Assembly: GCF_015207655.1 (NCBI RefSeq)
Contig: NZ_JADEWN010000010.1
Location: forward strand, 1 to 64,000
Source of the DNA: Gloeocapsopsis crepidinum LEGE 06123
GTDB taxonomy: Bacteria; Cyanobacteriota; Cyanobacteriia; Cyanobacteriales; Chroococcidiopsidaceae
Length of the DNA stretch: 64,000 nt
Direction of reading: 5' to 3'
Shown: positions 281-20,269 of the stretch, in pieces
Numbering within the stretch: the first letter of the stretch is position 1
Layout: each line of letters begins with the position of its first letter
The notes under the pieces: generated by a model
The model's input: only the letters and a program-made list of their open reading frames with translations
Databases searched by the model: none
Told to the model about the DNA's origin: nothing
Made by a program: the position numbers and the translations under genes

Positions 281-2548
281 ATGGTCAACCCAGACACCAT
301 CACAGGTACACACAACCTGAACTTAGTTATTCTCTCAATTGGTATAGCGATCGTTGCTTCATATACAGCACTCGATCTTGTGGCACAAGTCAAAACAACG
401 TCAGGATGGCGCATAGCCCTTTGGTTGATTGGTGGTTCGCTAGCAATGGGAATTGGCATTTGGTCAATGCACTTTATTGGGATATTGGCTTATCGCTTAC
501 CCGTACCAGTCAGTTACAACTTTCCCATTGTTGGAGTGTCAATGCTTCTTGCTGTTTTCGCCTCTGGAGGTGCTTTATTCCTCGTCATTCAGGAATTGAG
601 TTGGTTAAAGCTAGCAACTGGCAGCGTACTTATGGGGCTGAGTATTGCGGCAATGCACTACACGGGGATGCAGGCAATGCGGTTAGCAGCGACACCATTG
701 TATAGCTTAAAAAATGTTACTTTCTCGATTGCAGTTGCAATTGGAGTTTCATTTACGGCTTTATGGTTAGCTTATCATCAAACCAAGACGATCGCTCAAG
801 GAACGATTCGCAAGCTGGCTAGTGCAGTTGTCATGGGAATTGCGATCGCAGGAATGCACTACACCGCGATGACATCGGTCAAGTTTCAACTTTACGAGTC
901 AACTTTGAGTGCGACACAACTGGATAACTCCATGCTTGCTGTCTCAGTTGGTGTTGCGACTCTCATATTATTAGCACTAGCATTCATCAGCGCCGCGATC
1001 GCCCAACGGATCGCGGCTGAAAATGCCAGAACTGAAATTTTGCGTCAAAGCGAAGCGCGATTTCGTGCTTTAGAACAAAACTCCTGTGATGTCATTCAAG
1101 TTGTCAATGCGGCAGGATTTATTACATACACCAGTTGTTCAATGCAACGGATTTTAGGTTACACGCCACAAGACTGCCATGAAAAACAGGCATTTACTCT
1201 TGTTTATCAAGAAGATCTTGCCCAGGCAAAAAAGTTATTGCAAGAAGCTTTGTCTCATCCTGCCGCTAATATGGTTGCTGAGTTTCGTTTACAACACGTT
1301 AGTGGAGAACCGCGTGACTTTGAAGCGATCGCCTGTAATTTACTGGCTGAACCGAGTGTTAATGGTGTTGTCATTACTTATCGCGATATTAGTAAACGCA
1401 AGCAAACTGAAGCGGATTTGTGGAATGCACTACAGCGACTGACCTTTCATGTCGAAAATTCTCCGCTTGCTGTGATTGAATGGAATCGTGATTTTCGCGT
1501 GGCGCGGTGGTCGCGTGAGGCTGAAACGCTGTTTGGTTGGCAAGCTGCAGAAGTGCTAGGAAAACTACCCAGCGAGTGGAATTTTGTTTTTCCAGAAGAT
1601 CGGGCAACTGTCAGCCAAGTTATCGATCAACTTATCGATGGCAGCCAACAACGCAATGTTGCGCTCAATCGTAACTACACTAAAGATGACAAAGTCGTTT
1701 ACTGTGAGTGGTACAATTCAGGATTACTCGACGAAGCGGGCAATTTAGTTTCCGTGCTGTCTTTGATTTTAGATGTCACTCAGCAAAAACAAACTGAAGC
1801 AGAACTTGTCCACCGCGCTGCTGAACTTGTTCGTCTAACTACGATGCTGGCACAAACGAATTACGATCTCCAAAAGCGCAATCAGGAACTCGATGAGTTC
1901 AGTTACGTCGTTTCCCATGACCTCAAAGCACCGTTGCGGGCGATCGCCAATTTATCTGAATGGATTGAAGAAGATCTAGAAGAAAGTTTGACAGAAGAAA
2001 CTCGCCAGCAAATGAACTTATTACGCGGGCGAGTTTATCGTATGGAGGCTCTAATTAATGGTTTACTGCAATATTCGCGAGTCGGACGTGTTGAAACTCC
2101 CATGACTTCTGTGTCAGTTGCGACTCTGCTTGCAGAAGTTATTGACTCCCTAGATCCTCCAGCAACTTTTACGATTAAAGTTTCACCAAATATGCCAACG
2201 CTATGGACATATAGATTGCTCTTAGAGCAAGTATTTAGTAATCTCATCAGTAATGCTATTAAACATCACCCTAGGTTAGATGGCACAATACATATTTCAT
2301 CCATAGATGTCGGTGATTTCTATCAATTCACAGTAGCTGATGATGGTGATGGAATTGCCCCAGAATATCAAGCTAAAGTGTTTGGCATTTTTCAGACATT
2401 ATCTGCTCGCGACCAAAAAGAAAACACTGGGATCGGATTATCAATTGTCAAGAAAATTGTTGAAAGCCAAGGAGGTAGCATTTGGCTAGAATCTCAAGCA
2501 GGACAAGGCGCAGCATTTTACTTCACTTGGTTAAAAACTCAAAATTAA
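281..2548 (+). CDS. MHYT-domain sensor histidine kinase with two PAS domains
   Basis: Membrane-bound sensor kinase, 755 residues. The N-terminal 250 residues are hydrophobic and carry the repeated MHYT signature three times (SMHFIGIL, AMHYTGMQ, GMHYTAMT). In this family the motif is proposed to bind copper and sense O2, CO or NO. Two PAS domains follow (roughly 255-375 and 385-505). A dimerisation domain then carries the phospho-acceptor His546 in VSHDLKAPLR, and the HATPase domain has DDGDGIAPE and NTGIGLSIVKK. The kinase core resembles cyanobacterial phytochrome-type kinases that pair with small Rcp1-like receivers, and the next gene encodes exactly such a receiver, so the two probably form a pair. 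The ATG at 281 is the first start in frame and begins directly before the first membrane segment. Confidence 0.93.
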   Translation: MVNPDTITGTHNLNLVILSIGIAIVASYTALDLVAQVKTTSGWRIALWLIGGSLAMGIGIWSMHFIGILAYRLPVPVSYNFPIVGVSMLLAVFASGGALFLVIQELSWLKLATGSVLMGLSIAAMHYTGMQAMRLAATPLYSLKNVTFSIAVAIGVSFTALWLAYHQTKTIAQGTIRKLASAVVMGIAIAGMHYTAMTSVKFQLYESTLSATQLDNSMLAVSVGVATLILLALAFISAAIAQRIAAENARTEILRQSEARFRALEQNSCDVIQVVNAAGFITYTSCSMQRILGYTPQDCHEKQAFTLVYQEDLAQAKKLLQEALSHPAANMVAEFRLQHVSGEPRDFEAIACNLLAEPSVNGVVITYRDISKRKQTEADLWNALQRLTFHVENSPLAVIEWNRDFRVARWSREAETLFGWQAAEVLGKLPSEWNFVFPEDRATVSQVIDQLIDGSQQRNVALNRNYTKDDKVVYCEWYNSGLLDEAGNLVSVLSLILDVTQQKQTEAELVHRAAELVRLTTMLAQTNYDLQKRNQELDEFSYVVSHDLKAPLRAIANLSEWIEEDLEESLTEETRQQMNLLRGRVYRMEALINGLLQYSRVGRVETPMTSVSVATLLAEVIDSLDPPATFTIKVSPNMPTLWTYRLLLEQVFSNLISNAIKHHPRLDGTIHISSIDVGDFYQFTVADDGDGIAPEYQAKVFGIFQTLSARDQKENTGIGLSIVKKIVESQGGSIWLESQAGQGAAFYFTWLKTQN

Positions 2549-2664
2549 GTAATAAGAAATAGCTCAAAAGTATTAAGTATTTATTGCTAACTTCAGAAAT
2601 CTTGCTAGCGATTGAGGTATATCAACAAAATTAATGGCAAAAATAAATATAAATTACAATCAAG

Positions 2665-3093
2665 ATGAATCATAAAATGACAAACATCCTGCTTGTTGAA
2701 GATGACGAAGTGGATGTAATGAATGTCAAACGTGCTTTTAAAAAAAATAACATTACTAATCCACTTTATCTGGCAGCCAACGGCTTAGAAGCATTAGCTA
2801 TGCTTCGTGGCGAAAACAGTGACTTTCAAATTCCCCACCAAAGGAGACTGGTTCTACTCGACTTAAATATGCCAAAAATGAATGGCATTGAATTTTTACG
2901 AGAACTGCGTGCTGATTCAGAACTCCGTTTCACCCCTGTGATTGTTCTGACAACATCGAACGAAGATCGTGACAAAGTAGAAGCTTACAACTTGAATGTC
3001 GCTGGATATATTCTTAAGCCAGTTACCTTCGCAAATTTTGTAGAAGCTGTGGCAACTCTCAATAAGTATTGGACGTTAAGTGAAATTCCTTAA
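2665..3093 (+). CDS. Stand-alone response regulator, Rcp1-like receiver
   Basis: Single receiver domain of 142 residues with no output domain. The acidic pocket is VEDDEVD near residues 11-17, the phospho-acceptor is Asp66 in LVLLDLNMPKMNG, and the TTSN and KPV motifs are present. Length and the LDLNMPKMNG motif are typical of Rcp1-type regulators that receive phosphate from phytochrome-like kinases. It sits 116 bp after the MHYT kinase and 62 bp before the large hybrid kinase, so either could be the donor; the upstream kinase is the better guess. A second ATG lies four codons in (MTNILL) and could be the true start. Confidence 0.92.
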   Translation: MNHKMTNILLVEDDEVDVMNVKRAFKKNNITNPLYLAANGLEALAMLRGENSDFQIPHQRRLVLLDLNMPKMNGIEFLRELRADSELRFTPVIVLTTSNEDRDKVEAYNLNVAGYILKPVTFANFVEAVATLNKYWTLSEIP

Positions 3094-3155
3094 CAGCTGG
3101 CATACTCTCAACCACGCTCTTTGGCTGTTCGCCAATCACTTTCCAATACTGAATT

Positions 3156-6100
3156 ATGGAAGAAACAGTAAAAATTCTGGTAGTTGATGATGATGAAGTT
3201 GACCGAATGGCAGTACGCCGTGCGCTAAGGGCTGCTGGCGTGCAAACTGAACTATCAGAAGTGAGTGATTGTGCAGGAGCGATCGCAATACTGCAAGCGC
3301 AATCCTTCGACTGTGTCTTTCTCGATTACTTTCTTCCCGATGGAGATGGTTTGAGTTTAGTACAGCAATTGAGATCTCTAGGAATTACAGTTCCTTTAGT
3401 CGTTTTAACAGGACAAGGAGACGAACAAATCGCTGTACAACTGATCAAAGCAGGAGCGTATGACTATCTTTCCAAAGCCAAGATATCACCAGAAAATCTA
3501 GCCCAAGTCCTCCGCCAAACAATCCGCGTGTATCGTGCTGAACAAGCTGCGGCGATCGCTAATGAACGCTTAAAAGAAAGCGAAGAACGCTATCGACTTG
3601 TTTTAGAAGGTGCCAACGATGGCATCTGGGATTGGCATTGTGCTACAAAGCAGGTTTATTGTAATGACCGCCTGCTAGAAATTTTAGGTGTATCGCGTTC
3701 AGAATTCGCTCATACAACGACAGCTTTTATGGAACGGATACACCCCGAAGATGTGCCGCATATCCGTGAAACTATTCGCAATCACTTGACAAATAACGAA
3801 AAATGTGAAGCAGAGTTTCGCTTCATTCATAGTTCAGGAGAATATCGTTACTGTCTAGCAAGAGGAAAAGCCCAACGCGATGCCAACAATTGCCCAGTGA
3901 GAATGTCAGGAGTGATCAGTGATATTACTGAGCGCAAGCAACTCGAAAATGCTTTGAGAGAAAGTGAATCGCGATTTCGCTATCTGGCAGAATCTAACGT
4001 ACTTGGGATCATCATTGCAGATATGCAAGGCAAAATCCTCGATGCCAACGATGCTTTTCTACAAATGATGGGTTACACAAAGCAAGATGTCATCTCAGGA
4101 TTGTACTGGAAAGACATTACCCCATCAGAATACGAGGAAATTGATCGACGAGCTGCGGCTCAAATGCGCTCGTCTCGAATACTAACGCCGTTTGAGAAAG
4201 AATACATTCGCAAAGACGGTAGTAGAGTGCCAATTCTCATCGGTGGTGCTTTGATTGATTACGTTAAAGAAATTGGCATTTGTTATGTATTAGATTTGAG
4301 CGATCGCAAGCGTTCTGAAGCAGAAATTGTGAAACTGAACCGTGACTTAGAACTACGTGTTAACGAACTCCAAACGTTATTCGATGTCATTCCTATTGGT
4401 ATTGCGATCGCGCAAGATCCTGAATGTCGATATATTCGGATTAACCCAGCCCTTGCCAAATTACTCAATCATCCTGTTGATGCTACTGCTTCCAAAAGCA
4501 CCCCTCTTGAAGATCAAGCATCTTTCAAAATCTACTCTAATGGTAGAGAGCTTCTAGCCACAGAGCTACCAATGCAGTATGCTGCTGCAAACGGTGTTGA
4601 TGTTTTAGATCAAGAATTTGATGTTGTTACTGACAACGGTTCCTCAGTCAAACTGCTTTCCTATGCTGCACCTTTATTCAACGAGCAAGGTCAATGTCGG
4701 GGTAGCATCGGTGCTTTTCTAGATATTACCGAACGTAAGCGGATTGAAGAACAAGAACGCTTTCTCGCTGAAGCTAGCAGTTTGCTGGGACCTTCTTTAG
4801 ATTACCAAACTACACTAGAAAATCTTGCTGATCTCATTGTTCCTCAGCTAGCTGATTGGTGTACCATCTATGTCGTAAACGAAGACAAAACTCTACGTCA
4901 AGTAGCGCTGACACATACCGATCCCGAAAAAGTTGAGTGGGCAAAAGAAGTTTTTAAACGTTATCCTCTCAATCCTGATGCGCTGATCGGCACACCCCAA
5001 GTTATTCGGACTGGCAAGTCAGAGTTATACTCAGAAATTCCTGATTTTGTCTTAGCTGGACTTGCCCGCGATACAGAACATCTAGAGATCTTGCGTCAGG
5101 TTGGCATGAAATCATTTATGTGTGTGCCCATGAAAGCACGAGAACGCACTTTAGGGACAATTGCCTTCTACTCAGCAGAATCGGGCAAAACCTATACACA
5201 AGCAGATCTAGCGTTTGCTGAAGATCTTGGGCGTCGTGCAGGTTTAGCAGTAGACAATGCTAAATTATTTCAGCAGGCAAATGAAATTGGTGAAAACTTA
5301 CGCCAAGCATTAATCATTCTAGGAGAACAGCAGCAACAACTACGAGTATTGCAGCGAATTACTAATCTCCTCAACCAGCGTTTGACAAACTTACCAGGAT
5401 TGCTACAAGTTATGGTAAGGGCAGTTTATGACGGTATTAGTGATGCTCAGTTTGCGTTGATTTTGCTGTATAACTCAGAAAGTTGCCAACTCGAATTAAC
5501 CGCAACAGCTGGCGTTGGTCAAGAAAGGTTGCTGTTGATGGAGTTGTTTGATAGCGGAGATAGTTTTCTCAACCACGTTTTTCGTACTGGTGAATCGCAA
5601 CTATTTAATGCGACAAGTCAGCAAGATCGCCAACATAAAACCTCTGGTACAGAAGAACCCCCAGCCGTTGAGTTACCAGCTGCCATTCAGGCTGTCGCAA
5701 TTGAATCTGCCTCTGCCGGAAGATTGGGAGTTTTAGCAATTGGTAGCTGGGAAAATCCCGAAGCTTTCGATATCGAAGACCAAAATTTATTAACGGCTGT
5801 AGGCGAACAAGCGGCGATCGCAATTAATAATGCCCGTATGATTGGCGTACTCGAAGAACGCGAAGAACGCTTAGCAATTCAAAACCAAATATTGGCACGA
5901 CAAAACCGCGAACTCGAACTTAACCGCCAGCGCATTGAACAACAAAACCTGCAACTCATCGAAGCTGCACGCCTCAAGTCACAATTTTTAGCGACAATGT
6001 CGCACGAACTGCGCACTCCCATGAATGCTATTATCGGTTTTGCTCAAGTCTTGCTACGACAACGCACCGCATCACTCAGCACTACGCAAGTCGAAATGGT

Positions 6101-6674
6101 AGAGCGCATCCTCAACAATGGCAAAAACTTACTCGCACTCATTAACGATATTCTCGATCTTTCTAAAATTGAAGCTGGGCGGCTGGAACTTATCCCAGAA
6201 GAGTTTGACATAGCCCAACTCATCAACTCTACCGTTGCTGAATTGCAACCACTTGCCGAACAAAAACAATTAAAGTTAAATGTTGTTACTAGTATTAATG
6301 ACTCTACTATAGTCAATGACAGTGTTCGCTTGCGACAAGTGCTTGTTAACCTGCTATCGAATGCAATTAAATTTACCGAAACGGGTTCAGTAGAAATCAG
6401 TGTTTGCGAACCGGAACCTATGCAGCTACTTCTCAGTGTGAAAGATACCGGAATTGGGATTGCCGAGGCTGACTTACCCAATATTTTTGAGGAATTTCGC
6501 CAAATCGATCAAACAACAACACGCAAGCATGGTGGTACTGGTTTAGGACTCGCTATTACTAAGTCTTTAGTACAAATGATGCAAGGCACCATTTCTGTTG
6601 ACAGCAAATTAGGTCAAGGCTCTAATTTTCAGATTAACCTCCCCCGACAAGTCACGTCGCAAGAGATAGACTAA
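3156..6674 (+). CDS. Hybrid histidine kinase REC-PAS-PAS-PAS-GAF-GAF-HisKA-HATPase
   Basis: A 1172-residue soluble multi-sensor kinase without membrane segments. An N-terminal receiver domain (1-125) has Asp57 in FLDYFLPDGDG. Three PAS domains (about 133-262, 270-388, 400-520) follow, then two GAF domains (about 550-700 and 735-890). A coiled coil leads to the kinase core, with His950 in MSHELRTPMNAII, an N box LLSNAIKF, and the G boxes DTGIGI and GGTGLGLAI. The receiver at the N terminus rather than the C terminus suggests it takes input from another kinase, so it could act as an intermediate in a local relay. No GAF cysteine signature for a bilin chromophore is evident, so phytochrome function is not supported. 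Confidence 0.93.
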   Translation: MEETVKILVVDDDEVDRMAVRRALRAAGVQTELSEVSDCAGAIAILQAQSFDCVFLDYFLPDGDGLSLVQQLRSLGITVPLVVLTGQGDEQIAVQLIKAGAYDYLSKAKISPENLAQVLRQTIRVYRAEQAAAIANERLKESEERYRLVLEGANDGIWDWHCATKQVYCNDRLLEILGVSRSEFAHTTTAFMERIHPEDVPHIRETIRNHLTNNEKCEAEFRFIHSSGEYRYCLARGKAQRDANNCPVRMSGVISDITERKQLENALRESESRFRYLAESNVLGIIIADMQGKILDANDAFLQMMGYTKQDVISGLYWKDITPSEYEEIDRRAAAQMRSSRILTPFEKEYIRKDGSRVPILIGGALIDYVKEIGICYVLDLSDRKRSEAEIVKLNRDLELRVNELQTLFDVIPIGIAIAQDPECRYIRINPALAKLLNHPVDATASKSTPLEDQASFKIYSNGRELLATELPMQYAAANGVDVLDQEFDVVTDNGSSVKLLSYAAPLFNEQGQCRGSIGAFLDITERKRIEEQERFLAEASSLLGPSLDYQTTLENLADLIVPQLADWCTIYVVNEDKTLRQVALTHTDPEKVEWAKEVFKRYPLNPDALIGTPQVIRTGKSELYSEIPDFVLAGLARDTEHLEILRQVGMKSFMCVPMKARERTLGTIAFYSAESGKTYTQADLAFAEDLGRRAGLAVDNAKLFQQANEIGENLRQALIILGEQQQQLRVLQRITNLLNQRLTNLPGLLQVMVRAVYDGISDAQFALILLYNSESCQLELTATAGVGQERLLLMELFDSGDSFLNHVFRTGESQLFNATSQQDRQHKTSGTEEPPAVELPAAIQAVAIESASAGRLGVLAIGSWENPEAFDIEDQNLLTAVGEQAAIAINNARMIGVLEEREERLAIQNQILARQNRELELNRQRIEQQNLQLIEAARLKSQFLATMSHELRTPMNAIIGFAQVLLRQRTASLSTTQVEMVERILNNGKNLLALINDILDLSKIEAGRLELIPEEFDIAQLINSTVAELQPLAEQKQLKLNVVTSINDSTIVNDSVRLRQVLVNLLSNAIKFTETGSVEISVCEPEPMQLLLSVKDTGIGIAEADLPNIFEEFRQIDQTTTRKHGGTGLGLAITKSLVQMMQGTISVDSKLGQGSNFQINLPRQVTSQEID

Positions 6675-6780
6675 AACCGGATAATTTTTGATACGCTAAG
6701 GTTAACAAGACAAATAAGTCGAGCATGAGCAAAGTTATTGCTTAGTGTAGAATCTAGTTTTATTCTATATAAAAATAAAA

Positions 6781-8478
6781 ATGTTAGGATGCGACATCAT
6801 CGTCGTTGGAGCCTCTGCTGGAGGAGTTGAAGCCTTAGAGCAACTTATTCGTAATTTGCCTCCTAGCTTACCAGCTGCAATATTTATTGTCCTTCACATA
6901 CCAGCACACAGTAAGAGTGTACTGCCAAGTATTTTAAATCGTTGCATCAAAAAGCACCACAAGGAGAATTCTCTACTCAAGGCTATTCACCCAAAAGATG
7001 GTGATGCTATTCAACATAACCAAATTTACATTGCTCCACCCGATCAGCATCTCCTCGTTAAAGACGGCTACATTCGTCTAGCACGCGGTCCCAAAGAAAA
7101 TAGCCACCGCCCCGCAGTCGATCCTTTATTTCGTACAGCGGCAAAAATCTACAAACAACGTGTTGTGGGTGTCATCCTATCGGGTACGCTCGACGATGGG
7201 ACTGCAGGTTTAATGGCGATCAAACAGCAAGGGGGGATTGCGATCGCTCAAGATCCGCAAGAGACGCTTTATTCAGGAATGCCGCGCAGTGCGATAGAAA
7301 ACGTGGCAGTTGACCATGTTTTACCCGTAGCTAAAATCGCATCTGTCTTAGTTGAGTTGGCGAACAAACCCCAAGAAAACACAGGAGCCGCAGCCGTGTC
7401 AAATGAAATGGAAATAGAGGCTGATATGGCAGAATTAGAGTTAGGGGCAATGCAACGTTTGGAACGCCCAGGAAAACCCTCATCTTTTGGTTGCCCAGAG
7501 TGTGGAGGGGTACTATGGGAACTCAAAGACGGAAACTTAGTTCGCTTCCGCTGTCGTACAGGTCATGCCTACTCTACTAATAGCTTACTCGCAGAACAAT
7601 CTGAGGCTTTAGAAGAAGCACTGTGGAATGCGCTACGCGCGTTAGAAGAAAAAGCCGCACTCTCACAACGATTGGCAACTCAAGCCCGCGATCGCGATCG
7701 ACCATATTCAGCACAACGCTTTCAAACACAAGGAGACGATGCACAAGCACGAGCAACGCTTGTTCGTCAACTGCTCCTTAAAGGTGAAGGAAATGGTAAA
7801 TTGCCATTAGTCAATGGTCAAGTTGGTTCGCCAGAAATTGTCACTCCAACTCCACAAGAAGAGAGCAACAAAGAACTTAATCCTGCTGCTGCATCCTTTC
7901 CGATCATCGCAATTGGTGCCTCGGCAGGTGGAATTAAAGCGCTCAGTGAAGTGCTATCGCCATTAGGTGCAGACTTTCCCGCTGCAGTTACAGTAGTACA
8001 ACATTTGTACCCGCATTATCGCAGCCACCTAGCACATATCCTCTCTCAGCGGATAGCTTTACCCGTTAAGGAAGCAGAACAAGGCGATCAGTTGCTACCA
8101 GGTAAAGTCTATATTGCACCGCCGAATAAGCATTTACTCGTGACTGCAAACAACACGCTGTGTTTGTCGGATGCTCAGCTTGTACACTTTGTCCGCCCCT
8201 CTGCTGATTTACTGTTTGAATCGGTCGCAGCTAGTTTTCAACAACAGGCGATCGCAGTAATACTGACAGGTACAGGAAGTGATGGTGCAATGGGTATCCG
8301 CGCGATTAAACACATGGGAGGAAAAGCGATCGCGCAAGATCGCGCCAGTTCAGAATTCTTTGGTATGCCTGGAGCCGCGATTGATACGGGGAGTGTTGAT
8401 TGGGTTGTTCCCTTGCAAGAGATTGCTTCTGTCTTAACACGTTTAGTGACGCATGCTGAAGAACCATTGGATTTATAG
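6781..8478 (+). CDS. Double-domain CheB-type protein methylesterase
   Basis: 565 residues with two complete CheB catalytic domains and no receiver domain. The first domain (about 5-195) has Ser12 in GASAGG, His39 in IVLHIPAH, and an Asp in SGTLDDGTAG. The second (about 372-560) has GASAGGIKAL, VVQHLYPHYRSHL and TGTGSDGAMG. Between them lies a zinc-knuckle-like segment (FGCPECGG...RCRTGHAYS) near 235-265. CheB enzymes remove methyl esters from receptor glutamates. Without a receiver this one is not controlled in the classical way. The CheR gene starts 11 bp downstream, so the two are very probably translated together. Its natural substrate is unclear because no receptor gene lies in this cluster. 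Confidence 0.93.
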   Translation: MLGCDIIVVGASAGGVEALEQLIRNLPPSLPAAIFIVLHIPAHSKSVLPSILNRCIKKHHKENSLLKAIHPKDGDAIQHNQIYIAPPDQHLLVKDGYIRLARGPKENSHRPAVDPLFRTAAKIYKQRVVGVILSGTLDDGTAGLMAIKQQGGIAIAQDPQETLYSGMPRSAIENVAVDHVLPVAKIASVLVELANKPQENTGAAAVSNEMEIEADMAELELGAMQRLERPGKPSSFGCPECGGVLWELKDGNLVRFRCRTGHAYSTNSLLAEQSEALEEALWNALRALEEKAALSQRLATQARDRDRPYSAQRFQTQGDDAQARATLVRQLLLKGEGNGKLPLVNGQVGSPEIVTPTPQEESNKELNPAAASFPIIAIGASAGGIKALSEVLSPLGADFPAAVTVVQHLYPHYRSHLAHILSQRIALPVKEAEQGDQLLPGKVYIAPPNKHLLVTANNTLCLSDAQLVHFVRPSADLLFESVAASFQQQAIAVILTGTGSDGAMGIRAIKHMGGKAIAQDRASSEFFGMPGAAIDTGSVDWVVPLQEIASVLTRLVTHAEEPLDL

Positions 8479-8489
8479 ATAGCTCGCAA

Positions 8490-10340
8490 ATGACCCAAGA
8501 AGTTGAAGCTTTGCTTAACTACATCAAGCGTAACCGTGGATTTGACTTCACAGGTTATAAACGACCAAGCTTAATCCGCCGCATTCAAAAACGGATGCAG
8601 GAAATCGACATTAATAGCTACAGCAATTACATGGATTACCTGGAGGTGCATCCCCAGGAATTTACTTGCTTGTTCAACACAATTTTAATTAACGTTACCT
8701 CTTTTTTTCGCGATCCTGAGGTGTGGGAGTATATAGGCGCAGAAATTGTGCCGCAGATTATTGCCCGCAAGGAGTTTTCCGATCCAATCCGCATCTGGAG
8801 TGCAGGATGTGCTGCAGGACAAGAAGCCTATACTTTGGCGATCATTCTCGCACAAGCAATGGGAGATGAACAGTTTCGCTCGCGAGTCAAAATTTATGCA
8901 ACAGATGTTGATGAAGAGGCATTAAATCAAGCTCGCCATGCTACATACAATGCTAAAGAAGTCACAGGTCTTTCTGCTGAACTGTTAGAACGCTATTTTG
9001 ATTGCGCGGATCAGATGTATACCTTTCGCAAAGACTTGCGTCGCGCGGTGATTTTTGGGCGTCACGATTTAGTCCAAGATGCCCCCATCTCGCGCATCGA
9101 CTTATTAACATGCCGCAACGCTTTGATGTATTTCAATGCTGAAGCACAAGCAAGAATTATAAATCGCTTTCACTTTGCGCTGAATAATACTAGTGGCTTT
9201 TTCTGTTTAGGCAAAGCCGAGATGTTACTTAGCCACAGCAATAGCTTTACCCTCATCGATCTCAAGCGGCGCATTTTTACCAAGCTAGCAAAGATGAATA
9301 ACCGCGATCGCTTGTTACTGATGAATCAAAAGCATAGTAACGATGAAGCTCCGCAAAATTTGACTAGTTACGGACGTTTGCGGGATACCGCTTTCAATAT
9401 ATCTCCTGTACCACAAATAATTGTGGATAACAAGGGCGTTGTTACTTTAATTAATGAAAGAGCGCGGAGTTTGTTTGGATTAAGCTACGAAGATGTGGGT
9501 CGTCTGTTGCAAGATTTAGAACTATCGTATCGTCCAGTCGAGTTACGTTCGTGCATTGAGCAAGCGGCTAGCGATCGCCGTCCCAATATTCACAAAGACG
9601 TAGAGTGGACAACTCCTGCGGGCGATACTCAATTTTTTGATGTTCAAGTAGCACCACTGTTAGACATCAACAGTCAGATGCTCGGCGTCAGTGTCACCTT
9701 CAATGATGTCACCCGTGCCAAACGATTGCAATACGAACTTGAGCATTCCAATCAAGAGTTGGAGATGGCTTATGAAGAATTACAGTCCACGAATGAAGAA
9801 CTAGAGACAACCAATGAAGAACTACAATCTTCCAACGAGGAACTAGAGACAACCAACGAGGAACTTCAGTCCACGAACGAAGAATTAGAAACAATGAACG
9901 AAGAACTGCAATCGTCTAATGAAGAATTACAGACAATCAACGAAGAACTGCGATCGCGCAGCGAGGAACTCAACTCAGTTAATGCATTTTTGGAGTCAAT
10001 TCTGACAAGTTTGCGTTGTGCTGTAGTCGTAGTAGACCGCGACTTCCTCATTCAAGTATGGAGTGACAAAGCCGAAGACATGTGGGGTTTACGCGCGCTT
10101 GAAGTTCAAGGACAACACTTTCTCAACATCGATATTGGTTTACCAGTAGATCAGATAAAGCAACCAATCCGCACCTGTCTAGTGGGTGAATCTAAATGTA
10201 TAGAAATTATCTTAGAAGCTATAAATCGTCGTGGTAAATCAATTCAGTGTAATGTCACTTGTACGCCGTTGCTGGGCATAACTAAAGAAATTCGGGGGGT
10301 AATTATGCTGATTGAAGAACGTGCGAGTACAGAGACGTAA
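8490..10340 (+). CDS. CheR-type methyltransferase fused to PAS domains and heptad coiled coil
   Basis: 616 residues. The N-terminal 270 residues are a CheR methyltransferase: the alpha-helical CheR N domain (YIKRNRGFDFTGYKR) is followed by the SAM-binding fold with WSAGCAAGQEAYTLA. CheR transfers methyl groups from S-adenosylmethionine to receptor glutamates. A PAS domain (about 295-410) follows, then a coiled coil of ten exact seven-residue units of the form EELxxxN (about 429-498), and a second PAS domain at the end. There is no kinase domain, unlike the larger CheB-CheR-PAS-kinase fusions known in other bacteria. Here CheB, CheR and kinases are separate neighbouring genes, which suggests they form a complex. 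The start is 11 bp after the cheB stop. Confidence 0.93.
   Translation: MTQEVEALLNYIKRNRGFDFTGYKRPSLIRRIQKRMQEIDINSYSNYMDYLEVHPQEFTCLFNTILINVTSFFRDPEVWEYIGAEIVPQIIARKEFSDPIRIWSAGCAAGQEAYTLAIILAQAMGDEQFRSRVKIYATDVDEEALNQARHATYNAKEVTGLSAELLERYFDCADQMYTFRKDLRRAVIFGRHDLVQDAPISRIDLLTCRNALMYFNAEAQARIINRFHFALNNTSGFFCLGKAEMLLSHSNSFTLIDLKRRIFTKLAKMNNRDRLLLMNQKHSNDEAPQNLTSYGRLRDTAFNISPVPQIIVDNKGVVTLINERARSLFGLSYEDVGRLLQDLELSYRPVELRSCIEQAASDRRPNIHKDVEWTTPAGDTQFFDVQVAPLLDINSQMLGVSVTFNDVTRAKRLQYELEHSNQELEMAYEELQSTNEELETTNEELQSSNEELETTNEELQSTNEELETMNEELQSSNEELQTINEELRSRSEELNSVNAFLESILTSLRCAVVVVDRDFLIQVWSDKAEDMWGLRALEVQGQHFLNIDIGLPVDQIKQPIRTCLVGESKCIEIILEAINRRGKSIQCNVTCTPLLGITKEIRGVIMLIEERASTET
9774..9983 (+). 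repeat. Ten tandem 21-bp units encoding heptad repeat
   Basis: Ten consecutive 21-bp units inside the CheR-PAS gene, each encoding EELxxxN or a close variant (EELQSTN, EELETTN, EELQSSN and so on; the ninth is EELRSRS). The units differ at synonymous positions, so the protein pattern is kept while the DNA has diverged. The strict period also creates spurious open frames on the opposite strand. Confidence 0.9.
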
Positions 10341-10609
10341 ATAATTATTATTCACAATTATTTTCCTATTTATCCCAGATATAAGCTTCGATTTAAGAAC
10401 AGTATTGACTTCTCAGCAATTTATATTTTTGTTTATAAATTTATTTTCATCCTTTCAGAGGACTTTCTCTCCTCTTTAAATAGATAGTATTTCAACTATC
10501 AGTAAACCAATTTAATTAAATGTAGGATAGCAGTCTCGGCTGTCGCGGTCAGGCGTGTTTAACCTACCTCGCAAAAAAATAAAAAACATTAAAGTATAAA
10601 AAGTTAAAA

Positions 10610-11932
10610 GTGAATACAGACAAGTTTTCTTATCAACTCAAATCGATGTGCGATCGCGCTGCTAAACTTTATCAGCAGACGAGTTTACCATCGTATCAGA
10701 CCCCCGAACTAGCATCTGACTCGCTCGAAGAGCTGCGGATCGCCGTTGAAGAATTGCACGTTGCGGAAGAAGAACTCCTTCAGCAAAATGAAGAGCTAAT
10801 GATTACGCGCGCTCAGTTAGAAGCACAAACTAAGCGCTATCAAGAATTATTTGAGTTTGCTCCAGATAGTTACTTAGTGACAGATACATTTGGCATCATC
10901 AAAGAAGCAAATCGCGCTGCTGCTACAATGCTCCATGTCCCGCAACAGTTTCTTGTAAGTAAGCCACTGATTAATTTTATTCCTTACGAGGAACGTAGCA
11001 TATTTCGTGCCAAACTGCAACAGCTACACAATACCCATCGGTTACAAGAGTGGGAAATACGTGTTTCTCCACGCCACAGTACTGAATTGGATGCAGCGCT
11101 AACTGTAGATACCATCCGCGATAGCGAAGGTAATGCAGTGGGCTGGCGTTGGCTAATGCGAGACATTACAGCACGCAAACAAGCTGAGGCAAAACTACGC
11201 GACATTGAATTACAAAACTTACAACTGCAAGAAACCGCACGCATAAAATCGCACTTTTTAGCAATTATGTCTCACGAACTTCGCAGCCCAATGAATGCAA
11301 TTATTGGTTTTTCGCAACTACTGCTGCGTAGTCCGTACGATCGCCTGTCTCCTCAGCAACAAAATATGGTACAGCGCATTCTCAATAGTGGAAGACATTT
11401 GCTGCGTCTTATCGACGATGTTTTAGATTTTTCTAGATTAGAAGCAGGTCATCTCGAATTACAATCCGAAGAGTTCAACTTGACAGAACTCGTAAGCGCT
11501 ACCACAGAAGAAATGCATTCCTTAGTTGAGCAGAAGAACTTAAAGTTGCAATTACAATTAAACTTGCAAAACTCACTTGTTGTGAATGACAAACATCGCT
11601 TACGCCAAGTCTTGATTAATTTACTTTCAAACGCGATTAAATTTACAAACGTTGGCAGTATTCAAGTTGATGTATGGGAACTTTCTCCCGAACGAATTGC
11701 GATCGCAGTTCAAGATACAGGAATTGGCATTGCCCAAGCAGATCTTCAAGACATTTTTACAGAGTTTCGCCAAGCAAATCAAACGCTTGTCCGCCAACAC
11801 GGTGGTACTGGTTTAGGGTTAGCAATTACAGATAGATTAGTACAAATGATGCACGGGTTGATTAGTGTCACCAGTGAGTTAGGTCAAGGTTCTACTTTTC
11901 AAGTCGAGATCCCACGAAGAGTGTCTTTATAA
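10610..11932 (+). CDS. PAS-domain sensor histidine kinase
   Basis: 440-residue cytoplasmic kinase. The N terminus is an acidic coiled coil (EELRIAVEELHVAEEELLQQ near 45-65), followed by a PAS domain (about 75-195), HisKA with His222 in MSHELRSPMNAII, and HATPase with DTGIGIAQ and GGTGLGLAI. The kinase core closely resembles that of the 1172-residue hybrid kinase earlier in the cluster (MNAIIGFxQxLLR, LLSNAIKFT, FRQxxQT, GGTGLGLAIT), suggesting duplication. The start is a GTG with no strong ribosome-binding site. A 269-bp spacer separates it from the CheR gene, so it may have its own promoter. It is convergent with rsmH, with 11 bp between the stops. Confidence 0.88.
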   Translation: MNTDKFSYQLKSMCDRAAKLYQQTSLPSYQTPELASDSLEELRIAVEELHVAEEELLQQNEELMITRAQLEAQTKRYQELFEFAPDSYLVTDTFGIIKEANRAAATMLHVPQQFLVSKPLINFIPYEERSIFRAKLQQLHNTHRLQEWEIRVSPRHSTELDAALTVDTIRDSEGNAVGWRWLMRDITARKQAEAKLRDIELQNLQLQETARIKSHFLAIMSHELRSPMNAIIGFSQLLLRSPYDRLSPQQQNMVQRILNSGRHLLRLIDDVLDFSRLEAGHLELQSEEFNLTELVSATTEEMHSLVEQKNLKLQLQLNLQNSLVVNDKHRLRQVLINLLSNAIKFTNVGSIQVDVWELSPERIAIAVQDTGIGIAQADLQDIFTEFRQANQTLVRQHGGTGLGLAITDRLVQMMHGLISVTSELGQGSTFQVEIPRRVSL

Positions 11933-11943
11933 CAATTACCAAA

Positions 11944-12831
11944 TTACAGATCTATGCTTCTTGCTGCAATACGCAATTTAGCAGAGCGCGATCGCGGGTT
12001 AGTTGCTAATTCATCTTCTTGGGGTGTAATAGGTTTTTTCGTCAGTACTTGCAACAAAGGTGAATTGCGTAAACTATGCTTGACAATCCGATCTTCTAAA
12101 CTGTGAAAACTGATAATCGCAATTTTGCCTTGTGGTAGTAACCAATTAGGGGCGCAGTTTAAGAACGTTTCTAAAACATTTAACTCATCATTAACAACAA
12201 TTCGCAAAGCTTGAAAAACACGGGTAGCAGGATGAATTCTACCGTAACGATATTGTCGAGGAACACTATAAGCGATCGCCTCTGCTAATGCAGTAGTTGT
12301 GTGAAATGGACGCTGTTCGACAATCCGACGCGCAATGCGTCGTGACAATCGTTCCTCACCATATTTAAAGAAAATATCTGCTAGTTGCGACTCATCCCAA
12401 TGATTAATAACTTCAGCCGCAGTTAGCGATCGCTGTTGATTCATCCGCATATCTAAAGGTGCTTCATGGCGAAAACTAAAGCCCCGTTCCGGCGCATCAA
12501 AATGATGCGAACTCACGCCTAAATCGGCAACTATCCCATCAAATTGAACATTAGGTTGATATTCCGCAAAATTCCCGTGCCAAAATTGGACGCGTTCTTT
12601 ATATGGTGCGAGGGTTTCTTTTGCTGCGGCGATCGCTTGTTTGTCTTGATCAATTGCTGTCAAGCGCACATCTGGGGCTGCTGCTAAAATTAAGCGACTA
12701 TGACCCCCACCACCAACTGTTGCATCAAGATAATGTCCACCAGAACGCACTGCTAACCCTGCAAGCAACTCCCGACTTAATACTGGTACGTGAACAAACG
12801 CAGGTTGATCGAGCAGTTCGTCAGTTGTCAT
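11944..12831 (-). CDS. rsmH: 16S rRNA (cytosine1402-N4)-methyltransferase RsmH
   Basis: 295 residues, the usual length for RsmH (MraW). It methylates N4 of C1402 in the ribosomal decoding centre using S-adenosylmethionine. The SAM-binding motif is [14 protein letters not shown] near residue 36. Other family hallmarks are [32 protein letters not shown], and [13 protein letters not shown] near the C terminus. It begins with [20 protein letters not shown], so the ATG at 12831 is well placed. The mraZ and fts neighbours seen in many bacteria are absent, as is usual in cyanobacteria. Confidence 0.96.
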
Positions 12832-13084: not shown

Positions 13085-16057
13085 TTAACCACTACTAGCT
13101 ACAAGCATCTCACCTTTAAGCATACGAGCTGCACCATCAAGCAGAACTTCTTCTAAATATGGCTTTGTAAAATAGCCACTAGCACCGAGTTGAATTGCCA
13201 TTTGACGATGGCGTTCCGCACCTCGTGAAGTCAGCATGGCGATCGGAATCTCATTGAGAGTAACATCTTGCTGCAAGCGTGACAATAATTCCAAACCATC
13301 CATTCTCGGCATTTCAATATCACAGAAGATCAGATCGCATGGTAAACCATCACGCAGCTTATCCCAAGCCTCTTGACCATCACGCGCTTGTTCGACGCGG
13401 TAGCCAGCTTTATTAAAGGTAAGAGAGAGTAGTTCGCGTACTGTAATTGAGTCGTCAACAATCAAGACGGTAGGTTCAGACTTGACATCTGCTGTAACTG
13501 GCTGGATAGGAGTCGCACTAGCAGTCCATAGCTTATTGCTGCGTTGTTGAATGCGTCCAAGTGATAAGTCAATTAATTCTAATACGTCTGCAATGGGCAT
13601 GACGTGACCATCTCCGAGAATTGTCGCCCCAGCAATACCAACTGGTTTTGACACTGGGGCTTCAAATTGCTTAATCACAATTTCCTGTTCGCCCAGAACT
13701 TGGTCTACTTGCAGTGCCATAAATGTCTCTGCAGAACGCAATATGATAACAGAAACCAAGTCATCTTCGCGATTGCTACCGTAGACGTTACCACGACCTA
13801 GGACGCGGTTGTAATTCAATAACTCTTTTAATGGTCGCAATGGTAGCAGAGAATCCCGCCAGGCAACACCAGGTTGACCGTCCTCTAACTTCACTACCGC
13901 TGATGTTGAGATGTCCATCATATCTTCGACACCATCCATCGGAAATGCAATTCGTGCTTTATCACTCAAGCAGCACAGTGCTTTACAAATGCTTAAAGTT
14001 AGTGGTAAGCGAATTGTAAACGTTGTTCCTTTATCCAAGGTTGAATCAGTATTAATCGTTCCCCGCATTTCTTGCAAACTGGTGCGTACGACGTCCATTC
14101 CCACACCACGACCTGCAAATTCATCAACTTGGTCTTTGGTACTAAAGCCAGGATGAAATAGTAAATCATATACATCCCCTGGTGACATTGTTCGGGCTTC
14201 AGCAACCGTGATTAATCCTTTTTGAATTGCTTTGGTCAACACGCGGTCAGGATCAATTCCAGCACCATCATCAGCAACGGAAATGACAGTTTGGTTTCCT
14301 TGATGAAAGGCACGGATCGTAATTGTACCTACAGGTGGTTTACCCTTGGCAATACGTTCTTCAGGAGTTTCAATACCGTGCGTAATCGAATTATTGACCA
14401 AGTGTGTCATGGGGTCATAGAGTTGCTCTAGAATCACCTTATCAATCAAGGTGTCGCGACCCTCTAGTTTGAGTTCCGCTTGTTTGCCGTATTTGAGTGT
14501 AATTTCTTTAACAGCACGAGGTAAGCGATCGGCAATCTGTGAAAAGGGAATCATCCGCGATCGCGTAATGCCCTCTTGCAGCTGAGTTGTCACCTGACGA
14601 AATTGACGGGCAACTTGTTCGGTTTCATCTGTCACAAACTCAATATCTGAAGCTGACTCGCGCACTCGCACAATCATTTCAATCATTTCTTGGGATAACG
14701 TATGAAAGCCCGTGAAACGATCCATTTCTAAGGCGTCAAAATCCATCCCTGTGGCATGACGTTCAGGTGTTTTCTCCGTATTCTCAACCTCAGAACGAGA
14801 AGGCGAACGGCTACTCAGCAAAGAAGCTTCCAGAAGCGATCGCTCGTACAGTTCCTGCATCTTAATTCCTAACTCATTGAGCTGTTGCACTCGATGTAGG
14901 AGATTCTCCGTAAACTGACGCATTCTCTGTTGATCTTGTTCTAAGCTGTTGCGATTGACAACCAGTTCTCCTACTAAGTTACTAATGCCATCTAGTTGCT
15001 TAACCGAAACCCGCATCGTTTGTTCAAATGCAACTTTGCGGGACACATTTCCAGATGTTTTAGTTATTGGTTCTGGTATGGATTTGTTTTGCTTAGGTGC
15101 CTCTTCAAGTAGTGTATCAAGGTCAGCAAAGTCATTTTCTCCTAGAGCATTCTCTGCTGCATCAATATTTGCATCCAAAAGAGCATCCAGATCTGCAAAA
15201 CCATCTGTATTCTCGGTTACTTGTGCTACATCTGTATCAAGCAATGCTTCTAACTCATCGAATTCATTGCTGGTTTCTTCATCTGGCACAACTTCTGGTG
15301 TATCAAGCTCATCTTCATCTAACAAAGCTTCTAAGTCTGTAAAATCTGCTTCCTCAGAAAAAGATTGGATAACAGTTTGCATCTCAAGTTGTTCGGAACT
15401 AGCAGTAATTCTTGAGTGATTTTCTAAGTTCAGGTTTGATGAAATGCTATCTAGTTCAGATATAGTTACTTCTGCAGAGATAAGAGTATCTTGATTGTCT
15501 GAATCAGATTCACTTAAACTATTAGTCAAATTAGTTTCTAAATCTATATTATTGGAGAAATTACTGTCTTGAAAACAAAAGACTTCTAAGTCAATTTGCT
15601 CTTTGTCTTGATAATCTTTGGTACTATTTTCTAATGATATTTGTTGATTTTTTTCTGGATTGCTTTTTGCTAAATCTTCTACTTCCTTGGTAATTTCAAA
15701 AGTTTCTAGACTAGAAAACAAGTTATTAAATTCAATTTCCGCCTCAGATAAAGAGATAATTTCTTCAGCCCCTGGATTAAGAAAATCATTAAAATTGAAT
15801 TCATTAGATAAGGCAATATCTATTTTATTATCTACGTCGAAATAATTAGATTCTTCTAAAGATTGAAGCTCAGCAGATAAACCTATATCTAGCCCATCTA
15901 GCGATAATTCATCTACTAAACTCGGCTCTGATAAGTTGCTGCAATCCTCACTAGCTAAATGAGATTCCTCTATATTTTCATGCTTTTTTGCCTCAACATT
16001 TTGCTGAGCAAATATCTCATCGAAATTTAAACTGTGCTGTTCTGATTCCGGCAGCAT
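13085..16057 (-). CDS. CheA/PilL-like hybrid kinase lacking Hpt, with C-terminal receiver (HmpE/PilL-C type)
   Basis: 990 residues. The first ~330 are acidic and low in complexity, where CheA normally carries its histidine phosphotransfer domain; no Hpt motif is present. Instead four short repeats F-x-[DE]-L-[DE]-x-L-L-[DE] occur at about residues 239, 266, 287 and 310. A dimerisation segment (VKQLDGISNLVGELVVNRN, near 352), the HATPase domain (LVNNSITHGIE, DDGAGIDPD, GRGVGMDVV), a CheW-like domain (about 690-835) and a receiver (865-985) with Asp913 in IFCDIEMPRMDG follow. The missing Hpt is supplied in trans by the gene directly upstream. This split matches PilL-N/PilL-C in Synechocystis and the pilus chemotaxis systems that steer type IV pilus motility. 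Last gene of a five-gene minus-strand operon. Confidence 0.93.
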   Translation of the reverse strand: MLPESEQHSLNFDEIFAQQNVEAKKHENIEESHLASEDCSNLSEPSLVDELSLDGLDIGLSAELQSLEESNYFDVDNKIDIALSNEFNFNDFLNPGAEEIISLSEAEIEFNNLFSSLETFEITKEVEDLAKSNPEKNQQISLENSTKDYQDKEQIDLEVFCFQDSNFSNNIDLETNLTNSLSESDSDNQDTLISAEVTISELDSISSNLNLENHSRITASSEQLEMQTVIQSFSEEADFTDLEALLDEDELDTPEVVPDEETSNEFDELEALLDTDVAQVTENTDGFADLDALLDANIDAAENALGENDFADLDTLLEEAPKQNKSIPEPITKTSGNVSRKVAFEQTMRVSVKQLDGISNLVGELVVNRNSLEQDQQRMRQFTENLLHRVQQLNELGIKMQELYERSLLEASLLSSRSPSRSEVENTEKTPERHATGMDFDALEMDRFTGFHTLSQEMIEMIVRVRESASDIEFVTDETEQVARQFRQVTTQLQEGITRSRMIPFSQIADRLPRAVKEITLKYGKQAELKLEGRDTLIDKVILEQLYDPMTHLVNNSITHGIETPEERIAKGKPPVGTITIRAFHQGNQTVISVADDGAGIDPDRVLTKAIQKGLITVAEARTMSPGDVYDLLFHPGFSTKDQVDEFAGRGVGMDVVRTSLQEMRGTINTDSTLDKGTTFTIRLPLTLSICKALCCLSDKARIAFPMDGVEDMMDISTSAVVKLEDGQPGVAWRDSLLPLRPLKELLNYNRVLGRGNVYGSNREDDLVSVIILRSAETFMALQVDQVLGEQEIVIKQFEAPVSKPVGIAGATILGDGHVMPIADVLELIDLSLGRIQQRSNKLWTASATPIQPVTADVKSEPTVLIVDDSITVRELLSLTFNKAGYRVEQARDGQEAWDKLRDGLPCDLIFCDIEMPRMDGLELLSRLQQDVTLNEIPIAMLTSRGAERHRQMAIQLGASGYFTKPYLEEVLLDGAARMLKGEMLVASSG

Positions 16058-16204
16058 AATACTTATATAAATAATTTTAATAATACTAAAATATCTTATG
16101 TAGAAAAGTTAACTGGAAATGAACTTTTTTAATAATGGCAAGTGAGACTGTTGTTTCCCACTGCCATTTTTTACCTATAAGATACAGAAGTTATGACATG
16201 ATGT

Positions 16205-17017
16205 CTATCGATGTAACTTATTAGCAGAAAGCGCTTTCAGTTGATCTGTTGTTGCAACTTCATTGAGACGACCTGCTAAGACTAATTCTTGTGATTGCTT
16301 GAGATCTTTGATAATAACTGGTGCTAGTGTACGGTAGTTGTTGTCGCAATTAGCGATCGCTCTTGATGCAGCTTCACAAACTTTAGACCAACCAGATAGT
16401 TGAAATTGCTCACCTAATTGTAATAATTGTTGACAATGTTCTTGTAACTGTTGACGGCTTTGCGATGTCTCAGGTTGCTTAAATAACTGCAGCATTTCTC
16501 GTAATCTTTGCAAGACTTGACTTTGAAAAACTGGGAGCAAATCGCGACTGAATGTAGAATTATGATTGTGCGAATCAGCGTTACGCTCAGAGGTTTGTGC
16601 AAGTAGCTGTAAATGATTGTTGAGTTCAGTAAATATTGGTTCAGTTTGTGCCATTAGATCGCTAACAACTTCATGAGGAAGCGATAATGAGCTTTCCAAA
16701 TGTTTAATGAGTTCTTGCAAAGTATCAAATACTTTAAGAAGTAGTGATTCTAGTTTTTGATCAATTTGAATTGTTGGATTTTCTTTGAGAATTTTGAAAT
16801 AGTCTTCCAAGCGATGTGCTGTCTGTTGGATACTGTCAAACCCTAGCATAGCTGCGCCACCTTTTACAGAATGAGCTGCTCGAAAAAGTGCATTAATCAT
16901 TTCTGAGTCTGAGAGTGTATCTTGAAGATTAACCAACCCTTGCTCAATGGTGTTTAGGTGGTCGTTAGCCTCATCGATAAAGTAGCCTAAAATTCGCTGT
17001 TCTTGTTCTTGTACCAT
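16205..17017 (-). CDS. Histidine phosphotransfer (Hpt) protein, PilL-N type
   Basis: 270 residues. An N-terminal Hpt four-helix bundle (about 8-115) has the phosphorylatable His49 in AAHSVKGGAAMLGF. The remaining 150 residues are helical and Gln-rich, with no recognised catalytic motif. It lies between the receptor gene (78 bp) and the Hpt-less CheA gene (147 bp) and supplies the phosphotransfer domain that CheA lacks. Phosphate would pass from the CheA ATPase to His49, then to the CheA receiver or to the small CheY of the same operon. This is inference from the split PilL-N/PilL-C architecture known in cyanobacteria. Confidence 0.9.
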   Translation of the reverse strand: MVQEQEQRILGYFIDEANDHLNTIEQGLVNLQDTLSDSEMINALFRAAHSVKGGAAMLGFDSIQQTAHRLEDYFKILKENPTIQIDQKLESLLLKVFDTLQELIKHLESSLSLPHEVVSDLMAQTEPIFTELNNHLQLLAQTSERNADSHNHNSTFSRDLLPVFQSQVLQRLREMLQLFKQPETSQSRQQLQEHCQQLLQLGEQFQLSGWSKVCEAASRAIANCDNNYRTLAPVIIKDLKQSQELVLAGRLNEVATTDQLKALSANKLHR

Positions 17018-17095
17018 AAGAATTTTATTGTAATTAATTGAACAAAAATATACTTACGCTATTGAGTCAGTAACTAGATACGAGCCACTTAATAT

Positions 17096-19699: not shown

Positions 19700-19723
19700 T
19701 TGCCGTCTCCGCTTGCCTTAATT

Positions 19724-20260
19724 TCATACTGCTGCCCATCGATTACTCCGTAAGATTGCTTTTTGGTCGAGCAGTCGGAGACACTGATGGGTGCGATCGC
19801 CTAATAACCACTCACCCCGCAAATAGGGATTTATACTATCTGTTGTTGCTGTCGGTTGCTGGATTGCCTCAACATCTAACCACTCCATGCCGACAATTTG
19901 TTCTACCGCTAACCCCACGATTATTTCTTGATCTTCAACCGCAATAATCGGAATTTCTGCCCGATCTGTATTGACAGCAGACGTTTCACCTAAAAATTGC
20001 CCTAAGTCAGCTACCCACAGAACTCTTCCACGTAAATTTAATGTCCCTAGCATTAATGGAGAAGCATTAGGAATAGGTGTAATCCGATCTGGCGGTGCAG
20101 AAAGTACTTCTCTAATTGCCATTGCACTGAAGGCTAACTCTTGACCAGATGTAAGATAAAAGCGTAAATGTAGCTCTCCCTCTGGTCTTTCTAATTCTTG
20201 AAGCTGAGTTGAAGCTTGCTCTGGAGTACTACTTGTTAATAATTCTAGATTACCGACCAT
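19724..20260 (-). CDS. CheW-type coupling protein (HmpC/PilI-like)
   Basis: 178 residues with a single CheW domain (about 30-170): LRFYLTSGQELAFSAMAIRE, LGTLNLRGRVLWVADLG, and the hydrophobic GLAVEQIVG segment. CheW links receptors to CheA. It follows the CheY gene by 9 bp and precedes the receptor gene by 24 bp, so it is part of the same transcript. The order CheY-CheW-MCP-CheA matches the hmp locus of filamentous cyanobacteria and pilH-pilI-pilJ of Synechocystis. Confidence 0.92.
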   Translation of the reverse strand: MVGNLELLTSSTPEQASTQLQELERPEGELHLRFYLTSGQELAFSAMAIREVLSAPPDRITPIPNASPLMLGTLNLRGRVLWVADLGQFLGETSAVNTDRAEIPIIAVEDQEIIVGLAVEQIVGMEWLDVEAIQQPTATTDSINPYLRGEWLLGDRTHQCLRLLDQKAILRSNRWAAV

Positions 20261-20269
20261 AAGGTTAAT

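Follow-up and report, generated by a model that had tools for sequence, protein, structure and literature searches.

The window is a stretch of 64,000 nucleotides from the cyanobacterium Gloeocapsopsis crepidinum LEGE 06123 (contig NZ_JADEWN010000010.1, positions 1 to 64,000). Close to its start, six co-directional genes on the + strand (281-11932) encode an MHYT kinase, a single-domain receiver, a REC-PAS-GAF kinase, a tandem CheB, a CheR protein with two PAS domains (CheR-PAS) and a PAS kinase. CheB and CheR-PAS may together form a self-contained module for reversible glutamate methylation, which would tune partner kinases and would need no chemoreceptor; the probability of this reading is put at about one half, and its basis is a row of candidate methylation sites on CheR-PAS itself. 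More tentatively, such proteins may be a widespread class of CheR with its own multi-site methyl-acceptor helix. They would provide a receptor-free adaptation memory which plugs into two-component kinases, either in trans (separate genes, the split form) or in cis (fusions).

In the proposed mechanism, CheR would methylate glutamate pairs on a long helix between the two PAS domains of CheR-PAS, and the receiver-less CheB would demethylate or deamidate these sites. The charge state of the helix would set its packing, like methylation in a receptor, while the PAS domains would sense input. In the split form, the coil of the PAS kinase would relay the state of the helix to the cluster kinases; in fusions with a kinase domain, this state would pass directly along the chain.

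Reversible glutamate methylation for adaptation has been studied mainly in chemoreceptors. If the CheR-PAS helix is methylated, methylation memory would be a stand-alone module open to use by kinases, and many CheB and CheR genes that now carry a chemotaxis annotation would serve a different purpose; it would also explain the retention of CheB-CheR in some cyanobacteria with no detectable receptor. The site array names the protein and the exact candidate glutamates, which gives a cheap test. No proposal of a methyl-acceptor helix on CheR was found by title and start of abstract in the open literature, subscription journals being mostly outside this search.

Site array and enzymes of the CheB/CheR-PAS pair

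The listing of open reading frames (ORFs) and the Pfam scan agree with the original prediction on the six genes and their domains, and also on the absence of CheA, CheW and receptors (methyl-accepting chemotaxis proteins, MCPs) among them. The prediction further looked to the kinases for methylation sites; the obvious site array is instead in the CheR protein itself. The AlphaFold2 model of CheR-PAS (39 sequences) has one helix over residues 408-507, with a mean predicted local distance difference test (pLDDT) score of 85-96 per ten-residue block and a whole-model predicted template modelling (pTM) score of 0.40. The helix is a row of heptads of the form N-E-E-L-[QE]-[ST]-[ST]; two of the eight heptads of the array (residues 428-483) end in Met or Ile. 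A structural search with the model returned CheR chains and PAS-containing proteins, with no MCP among the 50 matches listed.

Sites were scored as consecutive heptads, each fitting [EQ][EQ]xx[ASTG][ASTG] and spaced seven residues apart. The first methylation helix of E. coli Tsr fits three times (score 3); which Glu or Gln (Glx) of each Tsr site is methylated, and the Tsr site numbers used below, are taken as assumed. The likeness to this helix lies in the consecutive Glx-Glx-x-x-small-small heptads, and makes CheR-PAS a candidate for methylation by CheR. Among 1591 distinct ORFs of all loci (CheR called by profile), runs of at least three sites are found in 126 of 135 CheR proteins of at least 400 amino acids (aa): 106/112 of those with 400-900 aa and 20/23 of the longer ones. 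None of the 23 shorter CheR proteins has such a run; nor does any of 1433 non-CheR ORFs or 7955 shuffled sequences. The non-CheR ORFs include 59 with at least three EE[LIVM] coil heptads, none of which reaches three sites. The site pattern is not general to acidic coils.

The array is strongly conserved across 109 CheR-PAS proteins. Mean entropy is 0.37 bits in the coil, 1.15 in CheR and 1.64 and 1.57 in the two PAS domains. By heptad position it is 0.28 (a), 0.19 (b), 0.04 (c), 0.06 (d), 0.19 (e), 0.20 (f) and 0.75 (g); conservation at the exposed positions b, c and f matches that at the core positions a and d. Pairwise comparison (5046 pairs) gives a median amino-acid difference of 0.07 for the coil and 0.36 for CheR, with similar silent change in conserved codons (0.51 vs 0.55). 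This points to strong selection on the protein. Repeat homogenisation was considered as a cause and rejected, since silent change is like that elsewhere and the heptads in the window differ at DNA level.

Position e alternates between Gln and Glu (Q,E,Q,E,Q,E,Q,Q; residues 432-481) and is 97-100% conserved over residues 432-474. The alternation recalls the mixed Gln/Glu coding of receptor sites.

Both enzymes keep conserved catalytic residues. The CheR of the window aligns over its length with CheR of Salmonella and Bacillus; 12 of 14 CheR motif columns are invariant and two are nearly so in the 109 distinct proteins (effective number 76.4). Both CheB domains keep the Ser, His and Asp of the catalytic triad when aligned to Salmonella CheB (presumably residues 164, 190 and 286). 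In relatives, Ser is kept in 123, His in 124 and Asp in 126 of 126 CheB domains; four sequences depart from the triad, two of them through a gap at the serine. Only 11 bases separate the CheB stop from the CheR-PAS start codon.

As in chemotaxis, both predicted catalytic domains have conserved active-site residues. Unlike the chemotaxis enzymes, CheR is joined to PAS-coil-PAS, the cluster contains none of their usual partners, and Pfam finds no N-terminal receiver in the tandem CheB. Only 4/126 CheB ORFs at the loci of relatives have room for a receiver; in contrast, the CheB of a complete chemotaxis operon (L128) has one. Without a receiver, control by CheA is not possible in the usual way and would have to be indirect.

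The tandem arrangement of CheB is not an oddity. It is a fusion of neighbours which are separate genes in many relatives; two CheB domains lie upstream of CheR-PAS in 25 of the distinct relatives. The linker between the two domains has a Cys motif, as read off the sequence. Further tandem CheB fusions are found at L141:6298-7983 and L145:6262-7887.

Relatives and genomes without receptors

In a sample of the class, 253/388 genomes have a CheR match and 295/388 an MCP match. The CheR frames listed are mainly short (~220-390 aa), CheR-PAS (~600-660 aa) or fusions (mostly 1000-1450 aa). The relatives fetched comprise 47 split-type loci (frames of ~540-680 aa among the matches listed) and the best 80 of at least 580 named relatives, so the sample is biased to close ones. 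Loci L040-L086 and L140-L219 overlap in genomes; distinct full-length relatives number 108, with L049, L055 and L082 excluded by length and identity limits. Non-cyanobacterial relatives (54-66% identity, best segment) include isolates of the Actinomycetota (Dactylosporangium, Actinoplanes and Virgisporangium) and metagenome-assembled genomes (MAGs) labelled Planctomycetota, Gemmatimonadota, Betaproteobacteria, Rokuibacteriota and Hydrogenedentota.

Of the distinct relatives, 96 have more than 1.5 kb of sequence upstream of CheR-PAS, and in 84 of these a same-strand CheB lies there within 2.6 kb; the median gap to the nearest CheB is 139 bases (92 measured). No MCP was found in the fetched stretches of the 108 relatives by tblastn with the receptor domain of the window (median flank 8 kb each side, some shorter). 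If overlapping loci are all counted, CheB is upstream in 94/112 and an MCP is nearby in 1/127 (the divergent L049). The common core of the cluster is CheB upstream of CheR-PAS, and it extends across several phyla.

The larger cluster is less widely kept. The six-gene order is present in Chroococcus sp. CMT-3BRIN-NPC107 (L145), with a kinase, receiver (80% identity), REC-PAS-GAF kinase (63%), tandem CheB, CheR-PAS and PAS kinase, and in Aliterella atlantica CENA595 (L157), which has a single CheB. The gene order is thus not unique to this genome; uniqueness was a finding that, according to the original prediction, would have spoken against it, and it is excluded. A universal six-gene operon is rejected: only these two genomes keep the order, and in both the first kinase has PAS sensors and no MHYT. 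Across the 127 loci, many of them too short to hold all genes, the MHYT kinase is found in none and the receiver and the REC-PAS-GAF kinase in two each; a third receiver match (L219, 35%) is weak. An orthologue of the PAS kinase (at least 42% identity, nearly full length) lies before or after CheB-CheR in the stretches of 37/108 relatives.

The original prediction noted that CheB, CheR and a PAS kinase, here separate genes, can be fused elsewhere, and such fusions are seen among relatives. CheB-CheR-PAS(-histidine kinase) fusions have CheB, CheR, coil and PAS in the same order and the same kind of site array. They differ in being one chain, with a CheR ~30-42% identical to that of the window and a kinase domain in the chain or absent. 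The window has separate genes, an extra CheB domain, a PAS domain before the coil and no kinase domain in the CheR chain.

Fusions persist in genomes without receptors. According to the CheR and MCP match lists, 11 sample genomes without any MCP match have a strong CheR, at E 1e-42 or better; eleven more MCP-free genomes with a weak CheR (E 1e-5 to 1e-3) were dropped. Nine of the 11, all cyanobacterial, have CheB and CheR fused in a single frame of 1078-1298 aa; the remaining two have only a short CheR and no CheB. CheW is absent from 10/11, the exception (G045) having one match in a 136-aa frame, and from 8/9 of those with the fusion. Seven of these fusions were scanned with Pfam: the three from family f30 terminate with a histidine kinase, the four from family f18 with PAS domains. 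Persistence without receptors holds for the fused form; the split form is mostly found in genomes with receptors.

Evidence against the module and alternative readings

Several observations weigh against a self-contained module. The site pattern was defined after the helix was seen. The AlphaFold model, at the pTM given above, is of a monomer and is silent on whether CheR can reach the helix; conservation of the array could also reflect assembly or CheR docking. Part of the conservation is due to descent, because relatives were chosen by similarity. Nine long CheR proteins score below three sites; in L082:9509-11107 CheR is kept while most of the array is gone, little is seen of the first PAS domain and there is no neighbouring CheB. 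CheB is not upstream in 12/96 loci; eight of these 12 genomes were searched, together with that of L082, and all nine have CheB elsewhere (L142, L152, L201 and L212 lie outside the search). The PAS kinase is nearby in only the 37 relatives given above, and no kinase domain is found by Pfam in the four f18 fusions from genomes without an MCP match (L131, L132, L133 and L134). The 11 genomes of the class sample that have a strong CheR and lack MCPs are all without the split form, and 22/23 split-form genomes tested have MCPs; the sole one without an MCP or CheW match is an actinomycete MAG whose completeness is not established. Finally, site matches in the receptors of this genome and in both of the complete operon L128 are single or none and never form runs of two or more. 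The site pattern does not mark methyl-accepting proteins in general.

By analogy, the nearest precedent is the RsbM-RsbK pair, in which RsbM presumably belongs to the CheR family. In Bacillus cereus, the signalling helix that RsbM methylates is that of the kinase RsbK; the part of PMC4574943 used here, in which the methylated residue is not named, describes RsbM as an orphan, a methyltransferase with no methylesterase of its own, and cites 127 RsbK-like kinases in 10 phyla. As in the cluster, the methyltransferase is encoded beside sensor kinases, and RsbM acts on a signalling coil instead of a receptor. The cluster differs in having CheB directly upstream and the array on the CheR protein, whereas RsbM has no methylesterase and its substrate is the kinase. 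The partner kinase of RsbM, of the type CHASE3-HAMP-GAF-S-helix-histidine kinase (HK)-REC, is not in the cluster; a CHASE3-HAMP-GAF-HK-REC kinase is instead found at the second CheR of the genome.

The neighbours of this second CheR (274 aa; L125:8709-13163, contig C76) are a CHASE3-HAMP-GAF-HK-REC x3 kinase and a REC-PAS-HK kinase, with no CheB; the arrangement resembles an RsbM-RsbK pair. A comparable pair of CheR and CHASE3 kinase is present at L236:5163-9394, in a genome without a receptor match.

Other reports touch on related systems. CheR and CheB genes beside genes of multi-receiver signalling kinases have been noted before, with no substrate or mechanism proposed in the passage concerned (PMC5108060). 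In Salmonella, CheR methylates PhoP on consecutive acidic residues and on an arginine, according to the title of PMC8546571. The passages seen of PMC5812497 contain nothing on cyanobacterial CheB or CheR.

Given the action of RsbM on RsbK (PMC4574943), CheR-PAS and CheB could act in trans on the coils of neighbouring kinases, with the CheR-PAS helix as only a docking or dimer partner. This is unlikely. It fits the CheR/CHASE3 kinase pairs in this genome and in G045, and the N-terminal coil of the PAS kinase has near-invariant E47-E48-L49, E55 and Q59. A search of the genome with the CheR-PAS coil gave 13 other matches, the best being the kinase beside the second CheR (E 3.5e-6); the PAS kinase is the second best of these (third best if CheR-PAS itself is included), with a weak match (E 0.023). 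However, its coil is not unusually conserved (1.36 bits, vs 1.37 for its own kinase domain), kinase coils lack the array, as the 59 EE[LIVM] ORFs illustrate, and only 37/108 relatives have the PAS kinase in their stretch.

The original prediction that the complex tunes a kinase rather than a receptor is supported by comparison, through the lack of MCPs near relatives, the gene order in two other genomes, the nine receptor-free fusions and the RsbK precedent; placing the methylation sites in the kinases is not.

Less likely still, the set may act on the receptors of the chemotaxis (type IV pilus) operons of the genome, supplying the adaptation system that these operons lack. The genome (5.67 Mb, 150 contigs) has five MCP matches and two CheR matches, and its only two CheB domains are both inside the tandem gene. 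A receptor operon in which Pfam finds no CheB or CheR (13085-20635) lies 1.15 kb from the cluster, and MCPs are present in nearly all split-form genomes tested. Two of the five receptors, both on contig C84, carry consensus matches within the signalling domain or just before it. The signalling domain of the window's receptor contains no consensus match, and the alignment of this receptor to Tsr puts no Glx in the site columns 304 and 311; two further receptors likewise have no match in this domain. This is no proof, since receptors of the complete operon L128 also match only in part: one, aligned to Tsr, keeps a Glx pair at a single site of the four, and both have single consensus matches. The stretches around the 108 relatives hold no MCP, CheB lacks the receiver seen in L128 and so escapes the usual CheA control, and fused relatives are retained in receptor-free genomes. 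The alternative offered by the original prediction, service to the neighbouring receptor, is less likely for lack of a signalling-domain match there, with the two matching receptors and the receptors of split-form genomes remaining in its favour.

The least likely reading is that the helix is a structural or assembly element, a polar-core dimer or lattice which tethers CheR, PAS domains and kinases, with its site likeness a coincidence of heptad composition. In its favour, six of the eight central heptads carry a near-invariant Asn at position a, a feature that looks structural; signalling helices commonly have acidic residues at b and c (PMC1592074, in the part used here), and the receptors examined show no such runs. 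Against it, signalling helices have b, c and f 4-5 times less conserved than g, a, d and e (same source), the reverse of b, c and f here, and other EE coils at the same loci lack the small residues. The helix resembles the S-helix, as described in that part of PMC1592074, in being a long coil between sensory domains; it differs in lacking the ERT signature in the central heptad, in its hyperconserved exposed b, c and f positions, and in its length (100 residues vs ~40).

Layout of the window

Features of the cluster and its surroundings are given in the table. The original prediction described a chemotaxis operon that follows the cluster, with its own receptor and no CheB or CheR; this content is as described, while the operon lies on the opposite strand beyond rsmH/mraW and is convergent with the cluster, not a continuation of it. 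Counts of promoter-like signals (13 vs 24.5 in shuffles) and terminator-like signals (18 vs 12.2) gave nothing usable.

Table. Coordinates of features in the window
Feature	Position	Strand	Evidence
MHYT x3-PAS-PAS-HisKA-HATPase sensor kinase	281..2548	+	ORF list, Pfam
Single-domain receiver (REC)	2665..3093	+	Pfam; orthologue 79-80% identical in equivalent place in two relatives
REC-PAS-PAS-PAS-GAF-GAF-HisKA-HATPase kinase	3156..6674	+	Pfam; orthologue 63-64% identical (best segment) in equivalent place in two relatives
Tandem CheB (CheB x2, 399.6 bits)	6781..8478	+	Pfam
CheB domain a	~6781-7365	+	Alignment
CheB domain b	7906-8433	+	Alignment
CheR_N-CheR-PAS-(coil)-PAS protein, no kinase domain	8490..10340	+	Pfam, alignment, structure model
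Single 100-residue helix of CheR-PAS (residues 408-507)	9711..10010	+	AlphaFold2 model
Heptad array of Tsr-type sites EE-xx-[ST][ST] (residues 428-483), candidate methyl-acceptor helix	9771..9938	+	Pattern scan
Coil-PAS-HisKA-HATPase kinase (PAS kinase)	10610..11932	+	Pfam; orthologues in relatives
N-terminal coil of PAS kinase with near-invariant residues	10724..10834	+	Coil match and alignment
rsmH/mraW, between cluster and chemotaxis operon	11944-12831	-	
Chemotaxis operon: CheA-REC, Hpt, TPR-HAMP-MCP, CheW, CheY	13085-20635	Opposite to cluster	Pfam

The CheA of the window (13085-17017) may be split, as the 990-aa CheA-REC has no Pfam Hpt domain and a separate 270-aa Hpt gene adjoins it. 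Beside the chemotaxis operon, a 576-aa ORF (21251-22981) has no Pfam match and a weak match to the CheR-PAS coil; its size and place suggest an HmpF-like pilus taxis protein.

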